20,266 nt of DNA, taken from NCBI GenBank assembly GCA_946480535.1, contig CAMLKA010000017.1, positions 1 through 20,266 of the forward strand, written 5' to 3'. The position numbers were made by a program, and so were the translations under genes. The first letter of the stretch is position 1, and every line of letters begins with the position of its first letter. The stretch is from an uncultured Candidatus Saccharibacteria bacterium (GTDB taxonomy: Bacteria; Patescibacteria; Saccharimonadia; Saccharimonadales; UBA1547). Below the pieces are notes generated by a model. It was not told the DNA's origin. It saw only the letters and a program-made list of their open reading frames with translations, and ran no database searches. Shown in pieces: positions 2,735 through 19,338 of this stretch.

Positions 2735-3394
2735 TTACTCTTCTTCAGAGTCCGAGCGAAGCGCCTCTTTAATATCGTCGTAGCGGAACCCCTGGCGCGC
2801 GAGGTACATCATGAGTTTTTGCTCGTCGTCGTAGCGACGGGCTTTTTTCGCTATAATTTTGCGGAGTTCGTCGATATCAGTACGCTCAGATTCACCAAGC
2901 ACCCTTTGGATGATCGAACTTTCTACCCCTTTTGCCTGCAGCTCAGACTGCAGCTTACGCAAACTCGTCCCTTTACGAACATTGCGGTTTTCTACCCAAA
3001 ACCGAGCAAATTTCTCATCGTTCAAATACCCTTTATCGGATAAACGCTGAAAAACGCGCTCGGTCAGTTCTTTACTGACGCCTTTTTTGATATCACCTGT
3101 TTTTGTGCGAGTGTCACGTGTTTTTCGATACAGATAGTCTTTTAGCTCGCGTTGGCTCCGCGGCCGTACTAGGGCATACTCAAGCGACCTCGTATAGAGC
3201 TTGCCGAACTGGCTTTCATTCTCCAGTTCAACAAGCTCCTCCTCCGAGTACTCTGCGCCATTTTTAATACCAAGTTCTGCAACCTGCGTAATATCAAGCG
3301 AGAATCGATATTTTCCATCGACAAATACATTCACGCGATCCTTGTCGCGTGCCTGTATTTTTAAAGCGGTAATGCGTGCGCGAGGTGCGCTCAC
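2735..3394 (-). CDS. recX: RecX, regulator of RecA
   Basis: RecX binds inside the RecA filament groove and limits filament growth and ATPase activity. The 219-residue product has an N-terminal beta segment (RVNVFVDGKYRFSLD) followed by the three-helix tandem repeats of RecX, seen as SQRELKDYLYRK, LSDKGYLNDEKFARFWVENR and LARQGFRYDDIKEAL. The length fits the longer RecX subclass. The start codon is GTG, three bases after the recA stop; GAGG inside the last recA codons can act as its ribosome binding site, so expression is coupled to recA. Acidic C-terminus (DSEEE). Confidence 0.9.
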   Translation of the reverse strand: MSAPRARITALKIQARDKDRVNVFVDGKYRFSLDITQVAELGIKNGAEYSEEELVELENESQFGKLYTRSLEYALVRPRSQRELKDYLYRKTRDTRTKTGDIKKGVSKELTERVFQRLSDKGYLNDEKFARFWVENRNVRKGTSLRKLQSELQAKGVESSIIQRVLGESERTDIDELRKIIAKKARRYDDEQKLMMYLARQGFRYDDIKEALRSDSEEE

Positions 3395-3397
3395 AAG

Positions 3398-4450
3398 CTA
3401 CGCCTCTTCTTCAACTACTTTCTTGCGAACCTTAGCTTCGATCTCGTCGAGGACCTTTGGATTGTCAGCAAGGTATTGCTTTGAAGCTTCACGACCTTGA
3501 CCAATCTTGCCATCGCCGTATCCAAACCATGCACCACTCTTCTCAACAATGTTGTGAAGTGTCGCGAGGTCGAGTACGTCACCAGTACGAGAAATACCTT
3601 CGTTGTACATAATATCGAATTCGGCAGCGCGGAAAGGCGGAGCGATCTTGTTCTTGACGATCTTCACCTTTGTTCTGTTACCTATGATATCTTCACCCGA
3701 TTTAATTTGACCGGTACGGCGAATATCCATACGAACTGAAGCGTAGAACTTTAGTGCGTTACCACCAGTGGTGGTTTCAGGGTTACCAAACATCACACCA
3801 ATCTTCATACGAATCTGGTTAATGAAGATAACGATAGTTTTGCTCTTGTTGATGATACCGGTAAGCTTGCGGAGCGCCTGGCTCATAAGACGAGCTTGAA
3901 GACCCATGTGGCTATCACCCATTTCACCTTCAATTTCAGCCTGTGGCACCAGTGCCGCAACTGAGTCGACCACAACGAGGTCAACAGCGTTTGAGCGCAC
4001 CAATGTTTCAACAATTTCAAGTGCTTGCTCACCGTTGTCCGGCTGAGCAACAAGAAGGTTGTCGGTATCAACACCTAGGCGACGAGCGTATGCTGGGTCG
4101 AGCGCGTGCTCGGCGTCAACAAAGGCTGCCGTACCACCTTGTTTTTGGATTTCAGCAATTGCGTGAAGTGTTAGCGTTGTCTTACCTGAAGACTCTGGAC
4201 CGTAGATTTCTACGATACGGCCCTTCGGGTATCCACCACCGAGGGCGAGGTCGAGGCTAAGCGCACCACTACTGATGAGCTCAACGTCTACTGTTGAGGT
4301 ATCTCCGAGACGACGGATTGCTCCGTCTCCGAATTGCTTATTAATTTGCTCTTGTGCGAGGCCTAAAGCCTTAAGTTTTGCCTCTGAAGCTGGCGCAGTT
4401 TGGGTTTTTTCTGCCTTGGTAGTATCAGACGTATCAGTTTTCTTTGCCAT
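3398..4450 (-). CDS. recA: RecA recombinase
   Basis: DNA-dependent ATPase that forms filaments on single-stranded DNA, drives strand exchange and (where LexA exists) SOS induction. The 350-residue protein has Walker [10 protein letters not shown] at residues 84-92, the DAEHALDP segment, Walker B region [12 protein letters not shown], the conserved [23 protein letters not shown] region, L2 loop [17 protein letters not shown], and a typical C-terminal domain. A Thr/Lys-rich N-terminal extension of about 25 residues precedes the core. GAGAGGG stands six to seven bases before the ATG. It is followed by recX. No candidate repressor operator was recognised in its promoter. Confidence 0.98.
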
Positions 4451-4475
4451 ATTTCCCTCTCTTTCTCTGTAATCT

Positions 4476-4481
4476 ATTATA
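4476..4481 (-). promoter_or_regulatory. -10 box of recA
   Basis: Reverse-strand TATAAT, 25 bases upstream of the recA ATG, giving a short leader with a Shine-Dalgarno site. The TG dinucleotide lies two bases upstream (TGCGTATAAT), close to an extended -10. No good -35 hexamer is visible. Confidence 0.6.
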
Positions 4482-4498
4482 CGCAGGCGAATCTTAAT

Positions 4499-4508
4499 TT
4501 GCTATAAT
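4499..4508 (+). promoter_or_regulatory. Extended -10 promoter of pseudopilin gene
   Basis: TTGCTATAAT contains the TGn extension and a perfect -10 hexamer, eight bases before the ATG at 4517. The transcript would be leaderless or have a one- or two-base leader. The same TTGCTATAnT string recurs at three other promoters in the window. Confidence 0.6.
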
Positions 4509-4516
4509 CTATAGAG

Positions 4517-4918
4517 ATGAAATCATCACGTGGATTTACCGTTATTGAACTCCTTATCGTTGTCGTGCTTTTCGCCGTCGCCAGCGTTGTTTTCTTTGTG
4601 CAACGCAACCATGTCGAGGTTGCCGCACGTGATGACGCACGAAAGATCTCTATTAATGCCATGTACTACTCACTTGAGGAGGTATATTTCAAGGAAAATA
4701 AAGCATACCCTCGTACGGTTACCGCTGAGACCCTCCCTTCAGTTGACCCAGAACTCTTCAAAGACCCGAACGGGGTAAAGATTGGCGAAAGTTCAAGTGA
4801 CTTCCGCTACGAACCACTCGATTGTAACGGAGATGCCTGCAAAGGATACTCTCTTCGTGCCAGCCTTGAAGGCGAAGACGACTACGTCAAGACAAATCGT
4901 ACCGCAACCAGCGAATAA
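4517..4918 (+). CDS. Type IV pilin-like protein (pseudopilin)
   Basis: A 133-residue precursor with a six-residue leader ending in glycine, cleavage expected before Phe7 (RG|FTVIELL), and Glu at mature position 5, the class III signal recognised by prepilin peptidase. A hydrophobic helix of about 25 residues follows, then a small soluble domain with YYSLEEVYFKENKAYPRTV and a Cys pair (DCNGDACKG) that could form a disulfide. It would be processed and assembled by the machinery to which pilMNO at the left end of the window belongs, although it has its own promoter and lies between divergent recA and a convergent membrane gene. Whether it is a major or a minor pilin cannot be told. Confidence 0.88.
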   Translation: MKSSRGFTVIELLIVVVLFAVASVVFFVQRNHVEVAARDDARKISINAMYYSLEEVYFKENKAYPRTVTAETLPSVDPELFKDPNGVKIGESSSDFRYEPLDCNGDACKGYSLRASLEGEDDYVKTNRTATSE

Positions 4919-4920
4919 AT

Positions 4921-5685
4921 CTAGTCGCCTTCTACAGGACGGCCATTCTTAAATGCTTCTACAGCATTATTGAGCCGTGCAATATGCTCTTTTGGACCCG
5001 CCACATAGCTAAAACGGTAGGTTGTTTCATCGCCTTCTGTACTGAGGCGGATGTCACCATAATCCAGTAGGTGTTGCAGAATACCGTGCTGGGTGTAACT
5101 TGCGTCTTCAATGTTGCCAAGGCTCACGGTTTGTTCATTGCGGGCAAACAGCGACACTTGAATTTCCTGAATAACACTCTCGTTTGTTAAGAAGAATTTA
5201 TTATTTACATACACGTAGTACGCAATAAACATAATCAGTCCAATAATAGCGACCAGCACAAGGACAGGAACGGCAATTGTTGCCGCACTCGCAAGTGGAC
5301 CAGTAAGTGCTACATTCGCGACAATAAGATCGTAATTAAAGAGGAGTGACAGAAGAAGCCCAATCGCGAGCGTTCCCCCGCCGAGTGGCAAAATAAGACC
5401 AATCGGGTGGCGTCGCACAGCACGAATGACATACTCGCCTTCACTCAAGTTCAAAAGTGGGTAATTTCGCTTCGAGCGATCATGGAGACGTTGGCGCTCG
5501 GCGCTCATGACTGGCTTTTCTGGTTCGAGCGGACGCGCGACGTGCACAACGGTTGGCTGGGGTTGCTGGGCAGCGGGCTGTGGCGTTACTGGCGGGTGTG
5601 CGTAGAGGGGGCGACCTTGGGCGTCGTAAGCAACGGGTTGAGGAGTTTCTGGAGGAGTGGTTGGCGCTTCAGGCTGATTATTCAT
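4921..5685 (-). CDS. Membrane protein with bacterial PH domain (bPH_2/YdbS-like)
   Basis: A 254-residue protein. Residues 1-60 are Pro/Gln-rich and disordered; a basic stretch (about 62-75) precedes EGEYVIRAVRRHPIGLI, typical of the YdbS/YdbT-type membrane PH proteins; two membrane helices lie at about 96-118 and 132-160; and residues about 163-235 (FFLTNESVIQEIQVSLFARNEQTVSL..IEDASY) form the bPH_2 domain on the cytoplasmic side. No biochemical role is defined for the family. It lies downstream of ruvB in the same direction but has its own -10 box adjacent to the ATG, so it can be expressed separately. Confidence 0.8.
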   Translation of the reverse strand: MNNQPEAPTTPPETPQPVAYDAQGRPLYAHPPVTPQPAAQQPQPTVVHVARPLEPEKPVMSAERQRLHDRSKRNYPLLNLSEGEYVIRAVRRHPIGLILPLGGGTLAIGLLLSLLFNYDLIVANVALTGPLASAATIAVPVLVLVAIIGLIMFIAYYVYVNNKFFLTNESVIQEIQVSLFARNEQTVSLGNIEDASYTQHGILQHLLDYGDIRLSTEGDETTYRFSYVAGPKEHIARLNNAVEAFKNGRPVEGD

Positions 5686-15454: not shown

Positions 15455-15589
15455 TTAAAGGCCAAGCATCGAACTGCGGCGTGATACGAAATCGCGTAAT
15501 TCTTCGTTGCTTCGTGGTCGATCCCAGGTTGCAAGTTGTAAAACTTCACTTATAGTTACTGGTTCGATTGTTGCTTGGTTGGTTTCCAT
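15455..15589 (-). CDS. Small 44-residue protein of unknown function
   Basis: A complete small gene, ATG at 15589 to TAA at 15457-15455, beginning METNQATIEPVTISEVL and ending RRSSMLGL. The composition is that of a soluble, amphipathic helical peptide (ISEVLQLATW, then SNEELRDFVSRRS). Evidence that it is real is contextual: the 383-base gap between its neighbours holds nothing else, a consensus promoter lies upstream, the leader of about 37 bases is A-rich with a weak AAAGG, and the nested hairpin lies downstream. The leader has no strong Shine-Dalgarno site. The name and function are unknown. Confidence 0.55.
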   Translation of the reverse strand: METNQATIEPVTISEVLQLATWDRPRSNEELRDFVSRRSSMLGL

Positions 15590-15704: not shown

Positions 15705-15734
15705 TTGACGTCTCGGTTACGCTTATGGTATAAC
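15705..15734 (+). promoter_or_regulatory. Promoter of membrane protein/ATP-cone/flavoprotein operon
   Basis: TTGACG (15705-15710), 18-base spacer, TATAAC (15729-15734) preceded by TGG. The start codon is at 15768. It is divergent from the small-gene promoter, with about 43 bases between the -35 boxes. Confidence 0.65.
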
Positions 15735-15767: not shown

Positions 15768-16484
15768 ATGGACACATTTACTTCGCTCGCGATTGTCGGC
15801 TTTGCCGCTCTCATCCACGCTAGTTTTCAACTAAGCGTCAGCGTTCTGACCCTGCTTAGTGGTCACGCTATTGGCGCGAAGAAATCCCACGCCCGCCTTG
15901 TCCGCCTTACTACCAGCTACACCACCGGTGCTGGGGTGATGACCCTGCTTATTCTCGCCTTCACCTCACTTATCTTCCTCCATGCTTTTGGCACGCAAGT
16001 TCCCCTTCTCGTTTGGGCGCTGGTGTGTGGGCTGGTACTTGGTATTGGCATTGCCGTCTGGTTGTTTTACTACCGCCGTGGCACCAAGGGCACAGAACTC
16101 TGGCTCCCACGGGCATTTGCAAAATTCCTGACCGATCGAAGCAAAAAAACCCACCAAGGTGCGGAAGCGTTTAGCCTTGGCCTTACCAGCGTTATCGCTG
16201 AGCTTGTGTTCATCATTCCAACCGTCGCAATTGCAGCACTTGTACTCATCGAACTCCCCCCTGTTTGGCAACTCGTTGGTATTGGTATCTACACGCTTAT
16301 TTCCCTTCTCGGCCTCCTGATTGTTTGGTCGCTGATTGGCAGCGGTCGCTCGCTCGCCCGTATTCAAAAATGGCGCACCGAAAACAAGCGCTTCCTGCAG
16401 TTTAGTTCGGGCAGTGCCCTGATTGTCCTTGGCTTCTTCGTCTACGTCAGCAAAATTATGGCAACCGTCCTGGGAGCCGAATAA
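15768..16484 (+). CDS. Six-helix integral membrane protein of unknown function
   Basis: A 238-residue protein with six predicted membrane helices in a 3+3 arrangement: about 5-30, 52-74, 78-102, then a basic cytoplasmic loop (103-132), 134-162, 167-192 and 211-233. The layout is that of LysE/DsbD-like small transporters, but none of their signature motifs is seen, so no substrate is proposed. A TTG at 15705 in the same frame overlaps the -35 box and is rejected; the ATG at 15768 is used. Its stop TAA shares one base with the ATG of the next frame (TAATGG), so it is the first gene of a three-gene operon with the ATP-cone and flavoprotein genes. Confidence 0.75.
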   Translation: MDTFTSLAIVGFAALIHASFQLSVSVLTLLSGHAIGAKKSHARLVRLTTSYTTGAGVMTLLILAFTSLIFLHAFGTQVPLLVWALVCGLVLGIGIAVWLFYYRRGTKGTELWLPRAFAKFLTDRSKKTHQGAEAFSLGLTSVIAELVFIIPTVAIAALVLIELPPVWQLVGIGIYTLISLLGLLIVWSLIGSGRSLARIQKWRTENKRFLQFSSGSALIVLGFFVYVSKIMATVLGAE

Positions 16485-16501
16485 TGGAAGAGGGTGGGCA
16501 C

Positions 16502-16777
16502 ATGACACACGTAGTGAAAAATAGTCACTACCGCCACCCGGAGCCATTTGACCGAGTGAAATTGCATAAAAGTATTGTGGCCGCATGCTTGGCCTCAGGC
16601 GCACCGACAGGGCACGCCGAAAGCTTAGCCCGGCGAGTCGTTGAGCAAGTAGAAGAATGGCTCGAAAGCCGGCCGGAAGTCACCAGTAACGATATCCGGC
16701 GCGTCGCCTCCCAATATCTGAGAACCTACCACCCCGACGCAAGCTTTTTATACGAACATCATCGAGCGACACTCTAA
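16502..16777 (+). CDS. Stand-alone ATP-cone domain protein
   Basis: A protein of 91 residues (97 if the ATG at 16484 is used) that consists of almost nothing but an ATP-cone: HVVKN then EPFDRVKLHKSIVAACLASGA, a helix with SLARRVVEQVEEWLE, VTSNDIRRVASQYLRTYHPDASFLYE. In class I and III ribonucleotide reductases and in NrdR, ATP-cones sense ATP/dATP and switch oligomeric state. Here no reductase or zinc ribbon is attached, so it would be a free nucleotide sensor or oligomerisation module. The ATG at 16502 has GAGGGTGGG before it; 16484 would overlap the preceding stop. The neighbours suggest that it regulates the membrane protein or the flavoprotein; this is inference. Confidence 0.8.
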   Translation: MTHVVKNSHYRHPEPFDRVKLHKSIVAACLASGAPTGHAESLARRVVEQVEEWLESRPEVTSNDIRRVASQYLRTYHPDASFLYEHHRATL

Positions 16778-16787
16778 GGAAAACACC

Positions 16788-18170
16788 ATGGCAAAAACAA
16801 AACACACATTCGACTATGACCTCATCGTAATAGGAAGCGGCGCTGCCGGTAGTGCTGCCGCGACCATCGCCGCACGCGCCGGAAAGCGCGTTGCCATCAT
16901 TGAAGAAGATACCTTCGGTGGCGACTCTCCTAACTGGAGCGACGTTCCAACCAAGACCCTCCTGCACGTTGCGCGGGTGTACGATGAAGCCCGTCACGCT
17001 AATCGCTTTGGCCTCCGCACTTCAACCCTTGGCTACAACTACCCTTCAATTCGCAACTGGAAAAACCTTGTTGTCGAGCGCACTGGCGCGGCTGGTAACC
17101 GTCGCTTTTACGAAAACCACGGCATTAGCGCCTTTAACGGCAAGGCTCATTTCTTAACCCCTCATGAAATCACCGTCAATCGTCGCCACCTTTCTGCGGC
17201 ACACTTCTTGGTTGCGACTGGTTCGTCATGGATTGCTCCAAAAATCCAGGGGCTTGAAGACATTGAATACTTCACGCCACGTACCATCCTTGAAACGCTT
17301 CGTCCGCCAAAGAGCCTGTTTATTGTTGGCGGTGGTCAGTACGGTATTGAAATCGCGCAGCTCATGGCGACCTTTGGCACAAAAGTATACATTGCCGAAC
17401 AGGCCGGGCGGCTCCTTCCTCATGAAGACCCTGAAGTTGGCGACCTGATTGAGCGCGTGCTCACCGAGCAAAAAGGCACGACCGTTCTCACCCACACCCG
17501 CGTCCTTTCTGTTGCCAAAGAGGGCCTCAGTAAGAAGATTCTTATCTCACGCGGTGGGACCGAAAAGCACATTAGGGTCGATGAAATTGTCGTTGCCGCT
17601 GGGCGCTTGCCGAATGTTGACCTTGGCCTCGAAAATGCCTCAGTGAACTACACTCCGAAAGGCATTGAAGTCAACGAGCACCTCCAGACCAGCAATAAGC
17701 ATATCTACGCCGCCGGTGATGTCCTGGGGCGCGATAGCCACACGCACACTGCCCTGCTGGAAAGTAAAATTGCCGCTAATAATATGTTTGCGCGCACTAA
17801 AGTAACGCCTGACTACACCGCGACCCCGAATGTCATCTTCATTGCACCGGAAATCGCACATGTTGGCCTGTCTGAAGATGATTGCCGTCGTCGCGACCTT
17901 CAAGTTCACAAAGCTATCACTCCCCTCAGTATTGTGGCCCGCAGTAACACCGCCGATTTCCGTGATGGCTTTGTAAAGCTGATTGCCGATAAAAAGGGTG
18001 CTATTGTAGGCGGCACTATTGTTGCACCGCACGCCGCTGAAATGATTCACGAAGTGGGCCTCGCCGTAAAACTTGGCCTGACCGCCCAACAGCTTGCCGA
18101 CACGCCGCACGCCTTCCTTACCTGGGCCGAAGCAATTCGCATTACCGCTCAAAAGCTTACCGAAAAATAA
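16788..18170 (+). CDS. FAD/NAD(P)-dependent oxidoreductase, MerA/Lpd-like fold without redox cysteines
   Basis: A 460-residue protein with the full pyridine nucleotide-disulfide oxidoreductase layout: FAD-binding GSGAAG (16-21), ATG motif (VATGSS, 142-147), NAD(P)-binding GGGQYGIE (181-188), second FAD motif IYAAGDV (306-312), and the C-terminal dimerisation domain (about 345-460). The active-site motif, normally GGxCxNxxCxPTK, reads GGDSPNWSDVPTK (44-56): both cysteines are replaced (Ser47, Asp52). The C-terminal His-Glu dyad position reads HAFLTWAE, with Phe443 in place of the catalytic His and Glu448 kept. It therefore cannot do thiol-disulfide chemistry like dihydrolipoamide dehydrogenase or mercuric reductase; it could still be an NAD(P)H oxidase or diaphorase, or a redox sensor. 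AAGGA precedes the ATG; ten bases after the ATP-cone gene. Confidence 0.88.
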   Translation: MAKTKHTFDYDLIVIGSGAAGSAAATIAARAGKRVAIIEEDTFGGDSPNWSDVPTKTLLHVARVYDEARHANRFGLRTSTLGYNYPSIRNWKNLVVERTGAAGNRRFYENHGISAFNGKAHFLTPHEITVNRRHLSAAHFLVATGSSWIAPKIQGLEDIEYFTPRTILETLRPPKSLFIVGGGQYGIEIAQLMATFGTKVYIAEQAGRLLPHEDPEVGDLIERVLTEQKGTTVLTHTRVLSVAKEGLSKKILISRGGTEKHIRVDEIVVAAGRLPNVDLGLENASVNYTPKGIEVNEHLQTSNKHIYAAGDVLGRDSHTHTALLESKIAANNMFARTKVTPDYTATPNVIFIAPEIAHVGLSEDDCRRRDLQVHKAITPLSIVARSNTADFRDGFVKLIADKKGAIVGGTIVAPHAAEMIHEVGLAVKLGLTAQQLADTPHAFLTWAEAIRITAQKLTEK

Positions 18171-18219: not shown

Positions 18220-18603
18220 TTAACTCTGCAAGCTGGCGTCTTCAGGTTGTGATTGTGAGAAGATAACCACAAGGATCACCGCAAGACCAACAACCACGTG
18301 TGGCACCCATACATTCCAGGCTTCGTTTGCGAAGCCGAAGATCCATGGCGAGAGTGCCAAGAATGCTGCGGCAACCACATCGATAATAAGGTGGTACGGC
18401 ATACCAAGTACCTTCACCAGACCCCATTCGTATTTTGTGAAAATACTATAAAGGATAAGGCCAATACCAAGCACGATTGGAACAATCACAGCAGCGCCGC
18501 CCATGTCCGCGAAACCGAAAATCCATGGAGCGCCGATGAGCGCCAAGCCAACAATATAATCGAGTGCGCCGTGTACCTTTGTAGGAATAAATTTATAACT
18601 CAT
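18220..18603 (-). CDS. SPW-repeat membrane protein
   Basis: A 127-residue protein with four membrane helices in two tandem halves, each opening with the SPW-type motif: GAPWIFGFADMGGAA and LSPWIFGFANEAWNVW, each followed by a helix of the form VVPIVLGIGLIL / VPHVVVGLAVILVV. The SPW family (PF03779-like) has no known activity. The start is placed at the ATG (18603) after a clear AAGGAG; an upstream in-frame start at 18657 would add 18 basic residues and overlap the probable promoter. It is divergent from the Crp/Fnr regulator gene and probably controlled by it through the palindrome at 18665-18680. Confidence 0.85.
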   Translation of the reverse strand: MSYKFIPTKVHGALDYIVGLALIGAPWIFGFADMGGAAVIVPIVLGIGLILYSIFTKYEWGLVKVLGMPYHLIIDVVAAAFLALSPWIFGFANEAWNVWVPHVVVGLAVILVVIFSQSQPEDASLQS

Positions 18604-18637
18604 GTAATTCTCCTTACATTTTCTTAATTGTGCCCTC

Positions 18638-18643
18638 AGTCTA
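18638..18643 (-). promoter_or_regulatory. Candidate -10 of the SPW gene
   Basis: Reverse-strand TAGACT. With a start of transcription about seven bases downstream (near 18631), the centre of the 16-bp palindrome falls at about -41.5, the classical class II activator position of Crp/Fnr proteins; no -35 box is present at the right distance, as expected for an activator-dependent promoter. Confidence 0.45.
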
Positions 18644-18664
18644 TGGGAGCGTGACAATTTGGTA

Positions 18665-18705: not shown

Positions 18706-19338
18706 ATGGATTTTGTGGACTACATCAAGAGCGCACCTCTGAAAAACTTTACGCGCGGCGAAGTATTAGTACAAAAAGGCGCTGCGAGTAGTTCGGTCAT
18801 GGCCCTGCGCTCTGGCTTTGTAAAAGTTACCTCCATTAATGATGAGGGTGTCGAGCGACTGGTGTGGATTGCTGGGCGCTATGACCTTGCACCGACCGAA
18901 CGCCTCTTCTCAAAATCAGGTACGGTTCGCTTCTTTTACACCGCACTGACCGACGGCAGCTATTATCAGCTTGAAAAGTCAGCATTTCTTGAAAAAGCAG
19001 CTAATCACCCAGAGCTTATGGCAGAAATTGCCAAGGGGATGTCCGACCACTACGACGACCTACTACAGCATATCGACGCAATTGACACCGCCAGCGTGAA
19101 AGAACGACTGCTTCGCACCCTTCTTTACTTAGCCGAGCGATTGAGCGCCGAAGAATCGGTAGATTTATGTGAATACGGCCTCACCCTCACCCATGCCGAC
19201 TTTTCAAACCTTATTGGATCAACCCGCGAAACAACATCGCTCACCCTCAACGTGCTTCGACGCGAAGGCTATATCGACTACACCCGTAAGCAATGTATCG
19301 TGCACGCCTCGAAAATCCGTACCTTGTTTGAGGCGTAA
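18706..19338 (+). CDS. Crp/Fnr-family transcriptional regulator
   Basis: A 210-residue regulator with an N-terminal cyclic-nucleotide-binding-type beta barrel (about 10-115: NFTRGEVLVQKGAASSSVMALRSGFVKV...VRFFYTALTDGSYYQLEKSAF), a dimer helix (about 118-150) and a C-terminal HTH_Crp winged helix (LTHADFSNLIGSTRETTSLTLNVLRREGYIDY). The phosphate-binding GExAL/RTA signature of cAMP-binding proteins is not intact (AGRYDLAPTERLF), and the cysteine cluster of [4Fe-4S] FNR is absent, so the effector is unknown. In the recognition helix Arg and Glu (RET) are kept, but the Arg four residues after the Glu is Leu, which fits a half-site TGTAA in place of TGTGA. Probable targets are itself and the SPW gene. 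Confidence 0.88.
   Translation: MDFVDYIKSAPLKNFTRGEVLVQKGAASSSVMALRSGFVKVTSINDEGVERLVWIAGRYDLAPTERLFSKSGTVRFFYTALTDGSYYQLEKSAFLEKAANHPELMAEIAKGMSDHYDDLLQHIDAIDTASVKERLLRTLLYLAERLSAEESVDLCEYGLTLTHADFSNLIGSTRETTSLTLNVLRREGYIDYTRKQCIVHASKIRTLFEA

Follow-up and report, generated by a model that had tools for sequence, protein, structure and literature searches.

A conserved Saccharibacteria operon of a membrane protein, a stand-alone ATP-cone protein and a flavoprotein, with a putative origin in a cysteine-based membrane relay

Layout and conservation of the operon

The window, a stretch of 20,266 nucleotides from an uncultured Candidatus Saccharibacteria bacterium, carries three adjoining genes on the forward strand. 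They encode a membrane protein (MEM), an ATP-cone protein (CONE) and a flavoprotein (FLAV). The following features were located, each given with its basis.

15705..15734, + strand: promoter TTGACG-18-TATAAC with extended -10 (TATGGTATAAC); sequence and upstream alignment
15768..16484, + strand: MEM, six-helix membrane protein, 238 aa; ORF, structure model and profile comparison
16484..16777, + strand: CONE, stand-alone ATP-cone protein, 97 aa; PF03477 score and fold matches
16788..18170, + strand: FLAV, FAD/NAD(P) pyridine-nucleotide disulfide reductase homologue, 460 aa; domain scores and motifs
16917..16955, + strand: GGDSPNWSDVPTK, former CxxxxC site within FLAV; comparison with Cys-bearing kin

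The initial annotation had joined the three genes by one promoter, a TAATG junction and a ten-base gap, and all of these elements were found in place. The -35 element TTGACG (15705-15710) is followed by an 18-base spacer and the -10 element TATAAC (15729-15734). The MEM stop and the CONE ATG overlap by one base (TAATG), and 10 bases separate CONE from FLAV. A simple promoter scan missed the TTGACG/TATAAC pair because it requires T as the final base of the -10 element. TTTGAC and GCTTATGGTATAA are invariant in all 10 aligned upstream regions (the window and nine relatives).

The order and strand of MEM, CONE and FLAV are identical in 36 of 36 loci that were found through CONE alone, with intergenic distances of -7 to +4 and of 6 to 32 bases. 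The concern that the adjacency might be confined to this genome is thereby removed. For a broader comparison 115 loci were used, consisting of the window, these 36 loci and 78 of 80 survey loci. The survey loci were taken from 80 of the 129 genomes with a FLAV match and weighted towards matches that were weak or unusual; two of them, L115 and L116, were left out because they are ordinary disulfide reductases detected by score alone, and a few genomes are counted twice (e.g., L016 and L104). In 109 of the 115 loci, including L080, which carries an insertion, the three genes follow one another in this order and on the same strand. In an even draw of 195 genomes of the class, CONE was detected in 112 genomes (E up to 1e-5), i.e., more than half, and MEM in 116. 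FLAV matches with E no higher than 1e-20 occur in 129 genomes, some plain disulfide reductases included. The total of 118 CONE matches contains 6 above E 1e-5, at least some of which are NrdR-sized frames. MEM-CONE-FLAV is confirmed as a genuine and widely kept unit, far beyond chance. Among the titles and abstract openings listed from the open-licence literature, no description of this operon was found.

The stand-alone ATP-cone protein

In ribonucleotide reductase (RNR) the ATP-cone is known to act as the master switch, and in NrdR as the sensor. The description of CONE as a free-standing ATP-cone between a membrane protein and an FAD/NAD(P) protein holds: it passes PF03477 (33.8 vs a cut-off of 25.8 bits), and the gene order is kept. 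The best fold matches of its structure model (pLDDT 82.7) are NrdR and RNR cones. CONE keeps the VVKN, E, F and K positions of the predicted nucleotide site. K12, E20 and K26, which we take to correspond to the nucleotide-contacting K9, E15 and K21 of E. coli NrdA, are kept in 35, 36 and 35, respectively, of the 36 rows that form the window's group. Among the matches listed in the open-licence literature, ATP-cone papers are, by title, mostly RNR and NrdR work, and no title or abstract opening joined the ATP-cone with Saccharibacteria.

The fold, with NrdR as the best structural match, would also suit a detached RNR regulator or a short NrdR. We regard this as highly improbable, since CONE has no N-terminal zinc ribbon and reaches 14.8 bits against the 124.65 bits of TIGR00244 (NrdR), in a match that begins at model position 48. 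In addition, seven genomes were searched for other ATP-cone frames. NrdR-sized frames are present in 7/7 and RNR-sized frames in 5/7, all of them more than 100 kb from CONE or on another contig. CONE also stays with MEM even where FLAV does not. CONE is an additional ATP-cone protein, distinct from the frames of NrdR or RNR size, and the worry that its homologues always pair with an nrd gene is unfounded in these genomes. Three loci elsewhere in the phylum contain stand-alone ATP-cone genes without MEM or FLAV partners.

By its sequence, CONE would suit the role of a putative nucleotide sensor next to a membrane protein and a redox protein. In one large subgroup, 36 of 45 CONE rows have no residue at K12 and the predicted nucleotide-binding strand is gone, with the operon retained; these rows were hand-picked, and the choice of start codon could explain part of the missing N-terminus. 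CONE is absent from L053 (a Cys form), L050 and L051, and the CONEs of L048, L037, L042 and L045 have no PF03477 match. Therefore, nucleotide sensing is not vital everywhere.

The flavoprotein and the membrane protein

FLAV contains Pyr_redox_2 and the dimerisation domain according to the profile scan, and its nucleotide motifs read GSGAAG, GGGQYG and AAGD. It scores 340.8 bits with TIGR01350 and 362.7 bits with TIGR02053, under both equivalog cut-offs. FLAV of the Cys form L047 passes TIGR01350 (416.9 vs 408.8), and that of the intermediate L063 fails (395). At the place where Cys-bearing kin show GGxCxxxxCVPTK, window FLAV has GGDSPNWSDVPTK and so lacks the redox pair. In the resulting SPNWSD, Ser replaces the first Cys and Asp the second, presumably flavin-proximal one. 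The label of a cysteine-less flavoenzyme is therefore right for the CxxxxC pair and wrong for the protein as a whole, which is not entirely without cysteine. In HPTxSE, which we take to be the catalytic His motif of disulfide reductases, FLAV has Phe at the place of the His, Cys forms included. FLAV is judged to be a derived disulfide reductase.

Motifs were counted in 110 of the 115 FLAV rows (L010, L015, L023, L093 and L103 were omitted as short). The FAD motif is intact in all 110 and the NAD motif in 100. All 110 rows have an acidic residue, presumably a sign of NAD(H) use, after strand 2 of the NAD domain. Cys is absent from the second Cys position in 103 rows, 99 of which have Asp or Asn instead. 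These counts would agree with a FLAV that still functions as an NAD(P)H oxidoreductase without thiols, acting on a quinone, on another nucleotide as in soluble transhydrogenase, or on a small molecule, with MEM as its anchor or substrate carrier and CONE tuning it. However, 10 of the 110 rows have a disrupted NAD motif and 9 a disrupted FAD 'GD' motif, mostly with the operon retained, and in L050 and L051 the whole redox-site stretch is absent, yet FLAV still adjoins MEM. We consider this explanation unlikely.

The structure model of MEM (pLDDT 83.8) has six long, partly kinked helices, which bears out the six-helix membrane protein first proposed. In basal kin, an NPC motif in helix 1 and an ELPC motif in helix 4 give one Cys per half. 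Window MEM reads FQL and ELVF at these places and is without both membrane cysteines, which are present in 8 basal loci. Comparison of the window-type and Cys-type MEM profiles gave a probability of 98.6% (E 6.5e-16, 214 columns aligned), and the alignment puts NPC over FQL and ELPC over ELVF. Three far kin of Cys-type MEM were noted. L155 passes PF02683, the CcdA/DsbD domain (28.4 vs a cut-off of 27.1), and its N-terminal stretch has a CxxC with a sub-threshold glutaredoxin match. L138 contains a glutaredoxin domain above the cut-off, and L165 adjoins a VKOR protein. MEM of the intermediate L063 reaches 18.4 of 27.1 bits with PF02683; the only two Cys-type MEMs scanned, L047 and L053, have no PF02683 match, and neither has window MEM, which is above no family cut-off in the profile scans. 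MEM is interpreted as a derived, cysteine-less CcdA/DsbD-type protein, the Cys form being tied to PF02683 via L155. In titles and abstract openings of the open-licence literature, the sole match for CcdA together with Saccharibacteria concerned CRISPR.

The nearest other model is PF11139 (Sap/GAP), whose cut-off of 35 is reached by L047 (35.9), one of the two Cys-type MEMs scanned; L053 scores 28.6. Together with a weak match to the ArsG-type efflux permease model (25.1 of 200 bits) and the fast sequence change on the MEM branch at cysteine loss (2.85 changes per column, weak tree), this might indicate an exporter or channel of the LysE superfamily type with the two soluble proteins as energy and redox gate. 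Such a role seems improbable to us: window MEM exceeds no transporter-family cut-off, the neighbouring genes suggest no substrate, and for the model no solved counterpart was found at E 0.001 (Foldseek, VIA-align), the middling rows being other transporters. This last result counts against the CcdA/DsbD reading too.

Cysteine loss, putative function and known systems

In its basal form the operon has four genes, which encode ECP, a MEM carrying two cysteines in the membrane, CONE, and a FLAV that has the CxxxxC pair. ECP consists of N-terminal hydrophobic stretches and a His/Cys-rich domain. The MEM Cys pair is found in 8 of the 112 loci having a MEM, and all 8 also have the FLAV pair and ECP. 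In the other 104 loci the FLAV pair occurs three times, and an intact ECP is present in none within the locus DNA examined (3.5-8 kb in many loci). A genome-wide search detected ECP in 10 of the 195 class genomes, namely the 8 Cys-form genomes and two with a degenerate ECP. Four further genomes from the phylum draw (G496, G519, G503 and G329), which likely lie outside the class and are absent from the class draw, have ECP-MEM(Cys)-CONE in a row; CONE stays with MEM, and FLAV does not adjoin the others. In L054-L056 FLAV occurs without MEM and CONE. For these reasons, the direct partnership of FLAV and MEM is only putative.

The term cysteine-less thus stands for a joint loss in MEM and FLAV, with loss of the ECP gene, because both proteins derive from Cys forms. 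The window's lineage has the fully cysteine-less form: ECP is absent, and the MEM cysteines and the FLAV pair are gone. Trees were built from hand-picked subsets of the 115 loci (53 for the co-loss test, 44 FLAV and 41 MEM for the rooted trees). From a Cys outgroup, the rooted FLAV tree leads over a ladder of CC, CC with MEM already Cys-less (L036, L063 and L065), AD and SD. By these intermediates, the FLAV pair was the last to go in the window's lineage. L062 and L049 lost both pairs separately from the main ladder in this tree, which amounts to at least one further independent cysteine loss. The co-loss statistics comprise few events (2/2 independent pairs concordant, sign test p 0.5). The ancestor looks like a cysteine-based membrane electron-transfer chain, and this probable ancestry of the operon is a new result beyond the initial annotation.

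Loss of ECP, of the MEM and FLAV cysteines and of cone residues, and of CONE itself in L050 and L051, could also mean that the operon is decaying, an unneeded relay kept by linkage only. This is hardly credible. Between the window and L001, dN is 0.07-0.12 and dS 1.6-2.3, which is near saturation; the resulting dN/dS of about 0.03-0.06 shows all three genes to be under purifying selection, as judged from this pair. The wide presence of CONE and MEM (112 and 116 of 195 genomes) and the promoter elements invariant in 10/10 regions argue against decay as well. That the genes, CONE among them, stay together despite the loss of cysteines and ECP points to a new, non-thiol function.

We favour, at somewhat less than even probability, an operon that is what is left of a transmembrane thiol relay and that has been remodelled into a non-thiol membrane complex under nucleotide and flavin control. 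In the Cys form, electrons would pass from NAD(P)H via FAD to the CxxxxC pair of FLAV, then to the MEM cysteines and to ECP outside, and CONE would set this flow according to the ATP/dATP level. Today, FLAV may be an NAD(H)/FAD-loaded module at the inner face of MEM and CONE an adenine-nucleotide switch. Both would jointly gate MEM, which would perform a non-thiol transport or signalling step without electron passage via cysteines. More tentatively, the operon might be a new kind of nucleotide-gated membrane module, in which the ATP-cone controls a membrane protein and not ribonucleotide reduction, and FLAV, once a disulfide reductase, now senses redox state or donates hydride without thiols. 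Such a module could have been born when a CcdA-type relay of inner reductase, membrane relay and outer acceptor shed its cysteines and its outer partner, the rest staying one complex.

If true, the link of an ATP-cone to an electron relay in the membrane would give this domain a role that is new for it. Operons that are intact, half-dismantled or free of these cysteines form a natural experiment on an electron-transfer chain that changes its role with its core subunits together, and the intermediates of cysteine loss can be produced and measured. The hosts are bacteria whose genomes are very small and about whose redox physiology little is known.

Several known systems resemble parts of the operon. 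CONE has the fold of the ATP-cone proteins (RNR catalytic subunits, NrdR and ATP-cone NrdB) and their K, E and K positions, which we assume to be nucleotide-binding there. Unlike these, it is a free-standing protein of some 90-100 aa that goes with a membrane protein, lacks a zinc ribbon and has no RNR adjoining. FLAV is homologous over its full length to dihydrolipoyl dehydrogenase (TIGR01350) and mercuric reductase (TIGR02053), sharing FAD and NAD motifs and the dimerisation domain, but has Ser/Asp for the Cys pair and Phe for the catalytic His. The soluble transhydrogenase SthA and the LpdA-type NAD(P)H-quinone dehydrogenase are flavoproteins that share this fold and function although their redox disulfide is incomplete; FLAV stays far under both family cut-offs (242 vs 465 and 207.8 vs 479 bits). 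MEM shares with CcdA/DsbD six helices in two halves, in the basal form a Cys in each of the two motifs, and far kin of the Cys type that carry glutaredoxin-like domains or adjoin VKOR. In contrast to CcdA/DsbD, window MEM has neither Cys, passes no family cut-off and is partnered by an ATP-cone protein and a flavoprotein.

Organisation and conservation of the operon

The operon encodes a six-helix membrane protein (MEM), a stand-alone ATP-cone protein (CONE) and an FAD/NAD(P) flavoprotein (FLAV), all on the same strand, with a one-base stop/start overlap between MEM and CONE and a gap of 10 bases before FLAV. Coordinates, overlap and gap agree with the initial annotation, and the promoter claimed there is present in the sequence; a simple promoter scan of the window does not list this pair. 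TTTGAC and GCTTATGGTATAA are invariant across all 10 upstream regions that were aligned (window and nine relatives).

Features of the window (first four from sequence; last two after the operon)
15705-15734, + strand, promoter TTGACG-18-TATAAC
15768-16484, + strand, MEM
16484-16777, + strand, CONE
16788-18170, + strand, FLAV
18223-18657, - strand, SPW-repeat protein
18706-19338, + strand, Crp/Fnr regulator

CONE matches the ATP-cone family PF03477 (33.8 bits, cut-off 25.8). The family scan revealed an FAD/NAD domain and a dimerisation domain in FLAV, and for the window MEM no family over its cut-off. Searching the genome collection with the CONE alignment yielded 36 loci, by title 27 Saccharibacteria, two with Saccharibacteria genus names (Microsaccharimonas, Chaera) and seven Patescibacteria or (uncultured) bacterium. 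In 36 of 36, CONE is flanked on the same strand by MEM directly upstream (spacing -7 to +4 bases) and FLAV directly downstream (spacing 6 to 32 bases); adjacency in this genome only, which the initial annotation had considered, is thus dismissed.

Across 195 genomes drawn evenly from the class Saccharimonadia, 118 carry CONE (112 with E of at most 1e-5) and 116 carry MEM; FLAV matches with E of at most 1e-20 occur in 129 and include some plain disulfide reductases. The unit is complete and in order in 109 of the 115 loci studied in detail; L050, L051 and L053 are without CONE, and L054-L056 have neither CONE nor MEM. L050 and L051 encode a FLAV (401 aa) without the redox-site stretch, still adjacent to MEM. 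The cysteine-pair FLAV of L055 stands alone, with neither MEM nor CONE within 7 kb; the same contig (genome G064) carries a MEM relative with both cysteines (L134). L080, counted among the 109, has an 814-aa frame with a pilin-like N-terminus (2784-5228) between CONE and FLAV. Compared with the relative L001, dN is 0.069 (MEM), 0.123 (CONE) and 0.079 (FLAV), far under dS (2.28, 2.05 and 1.58), which indicates purifying selection, with dS near saturation.

A divergent 44-aa ORF, METNQATIEPVTISEVLQLATWDRPRSNEELRDFVSRRSSMLGL, lies at 15455-15589 on the - strand, a small protein outside the feature list with a counterpart in 7 of 7 loci inspected (window, L001, L002, L007, L008, L011, L013). The scan places a promoter-like site at 15661-15633, within a conserved stretch and pointing away from MEM. 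The SPW-repeat/Crp pair is located just upstream of MEM in L002 (Crp match broken), L007 and L010, and the end of a Crp gene in L009. The Crp/Fnr regulator may act on the operon.

The free-standing ATP-cone

In the portion of the literature available to us, ATP-cones appear in ribonucleotide reductase (RNR) and NrdR contexts. A PF03477 search of seven genomes identified, besides CONE, an NrdR-sized frame (156-171 aa) in 7/7 and an RNR-sized frame (731-809 aa) in 5/7, both named by size, either >100 kb from CONE or on a different contig. The pairing with an nrd gene, raised in the initial annotation as a refuting condition, is not borne out in these genomes, and CONE as a part of RNR was rejected, as these frames are separate and distant. 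The predicted CONE structure (pLDDT 82.7) has NrdR and RNR cones as best fold matches (E 5e-3, TM-score about 0.6-0.8).

Among the 36 rows of the window's group, K12 is conserved in 35, E20 in 36 and K26 in 35; the 7/7 rows from cysteine-bearing loci retain both K12 and K26. The CONEs of L035, L046, L047, L049, L062 and L156 pass PF03477. In the fast subgroup, cysteine-less loci with a degenerate CONE, 36 of 45 rows have no residue at K12; none of its tested members (L037, L042, L045) matches PF03477, and neither does L048. Free-standing ATP-cone genes of 84-93 aa with unrelated neighbours occur in other genomes of the phylum (L172, L173, L174).

Cysteine-bearing forms and the fourth gene

The deepest relatives, eight loci (L046, L047, L053, L057-L061), encode a MEM with the motifs [IV]DSINPCAIGVL and VELPCTGAPYL, one cysteine per half, and the same eight keep CPNxxC in FLAV. 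CcdA/DsbD-type thiol relays likewise have one cysteine per half. Profile comparison relates window-type to cysteine-type MEM (98.6% probability, E 6.5e-16) with both motifs in register. Of the two cysteine forms scanned, L047 barely reaches the PF11139 cut-off (35.9 vs 35), L053 stays under it (28.6) and neither matches PF02683; L047 matches the DsbD model NF001419 weakly (29.8 against 330). Among MEM kin elsewhere in the phylum, L155 passes PF02683 (28.4 vs 27.1) and shows, at its N-terminus, a CxxC stretch matching glutaredoxin below the cut-off (15.7 vs 22.9), L138 has a glutaredoxin domain above cut-off (29.3 vs 22.9), and the cysteine-bearing L165 adjoins a VKOR protein (by Pfam). These features tie thiol chemistry to the MEM family. 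L166 and L167, also cysteine-bearing, adjoin proteins assigned to VKOR by N-terminal likeness.

All eight cysteine-form loci contain a fourth gene, ECP, which directly precedes MEM and either abuts it or overlaps it by at most 11 bases. ECP has 252-356 aa, N-terminal hydrophobic stretches judged by eye to be two membrane helices, then GGPVH[WR]HxDxE...ACG...HEHxDxRxHLEG and further conserved cysteines. A Pfam scan gave no family over its cut-off; the protein database holds at least 1747 members. ECP (L046, L047, L053, L057-L061, L156-L159, L162), with its HWHAD...HEHxD pattern and conserved cysteines, resembles an extracytoplasmic protein that handles metals or thiols. It occurs in 10 of the 195 class genomes, the eight above plus G118 and G167, and in no further locus among L001-L125 and the window. 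In both additional genomes its His motifs are lost: in G118 (L048) beside a cysteine-less MEM and a FLAV with one cysteine, in G167 next to a 226-aa membrane protein lacking the cysteines, with no CONE. The phylum draw adds four genomes, absent from the set of 195 and probably from outside the class, that have ECP, cysteine-bearing MEM and CONE in a row and a FLAV with CPNYAC elsewhere; CONE therefore belongs with MEM and ECP even when FLAV is apart.

The MEM pair occurs in 8 of the 112 loci having a MEM, always together with the FLAV pair (MEM pair alone, 0/112). Among the 104 others, three (L036, L063, L065) retain the FLAV pair, with no ECP found, and two (L048, L075) a single cysteine. Rooted on FLAVs from three of those four genomes, the FLAV tree runs from cysteine forms with ECP over L061, then L036 and L063+L065, to L067 (redox site Ala/Asp), the window's type (Ser/Asp) and the fast subgroup. 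Within the cysteine clade, both pairs were lost on a separate path in L062 and L049 (support 99 for these two loci and 96 for the surrounding clade); L048 represents another, partial loss. Independent pairs are concordant in 2 of 2, too few events for significance. The MEM tree, weak owing to long branches, has 2.85 changes per column on the branch to the cysteine-less clade.

Proposed mechanism and comparison with thiol relays

In the basal form, electrons would pass from NAD(P)H via FAD and CxxxxC to the MEM pair and ECP outside, and CONE would read ATP/dATP from inside. The putative outer acceptor and relay were lost first and the inner reductase later, the order to be expected if such a chain broke down.

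The L047 FLAV lies above the dihydrolipoyl dehydrogenase cut-off and the window FLAV below. Among the 110 FLAV rows that are long enough, GxGxxG of the FAD site is intact in 110, the NAD motif GxGxx[GA] in 100 (8/8 cysteine forms, 92/102 others) and the FAD-site GD in 101, every exception to the latter two being cysteine-less. Asp replaces the second cysteine in 87/103 rows and Asn in 12/103. Electron flow through these thiols is impossible in the window's form, which retains the flavin, nucleotide and membrane parts under selection. FLAV as a thiol-free oxidoreductase is one main rival reading; MEM as a gated exporter is the other. We favour a present-day complex in which FLAV and CONE would together gate MEM.

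The portion available to us of the open-licence literature on ATP-cones with Saccharibacteria, flavoproteins or CcdA describes no such system. The closest comparison is the CcdA/DsbD relay: the operon would work, or would have worked, alike, but the window proteins are not members, since the defining cysteines are absent.
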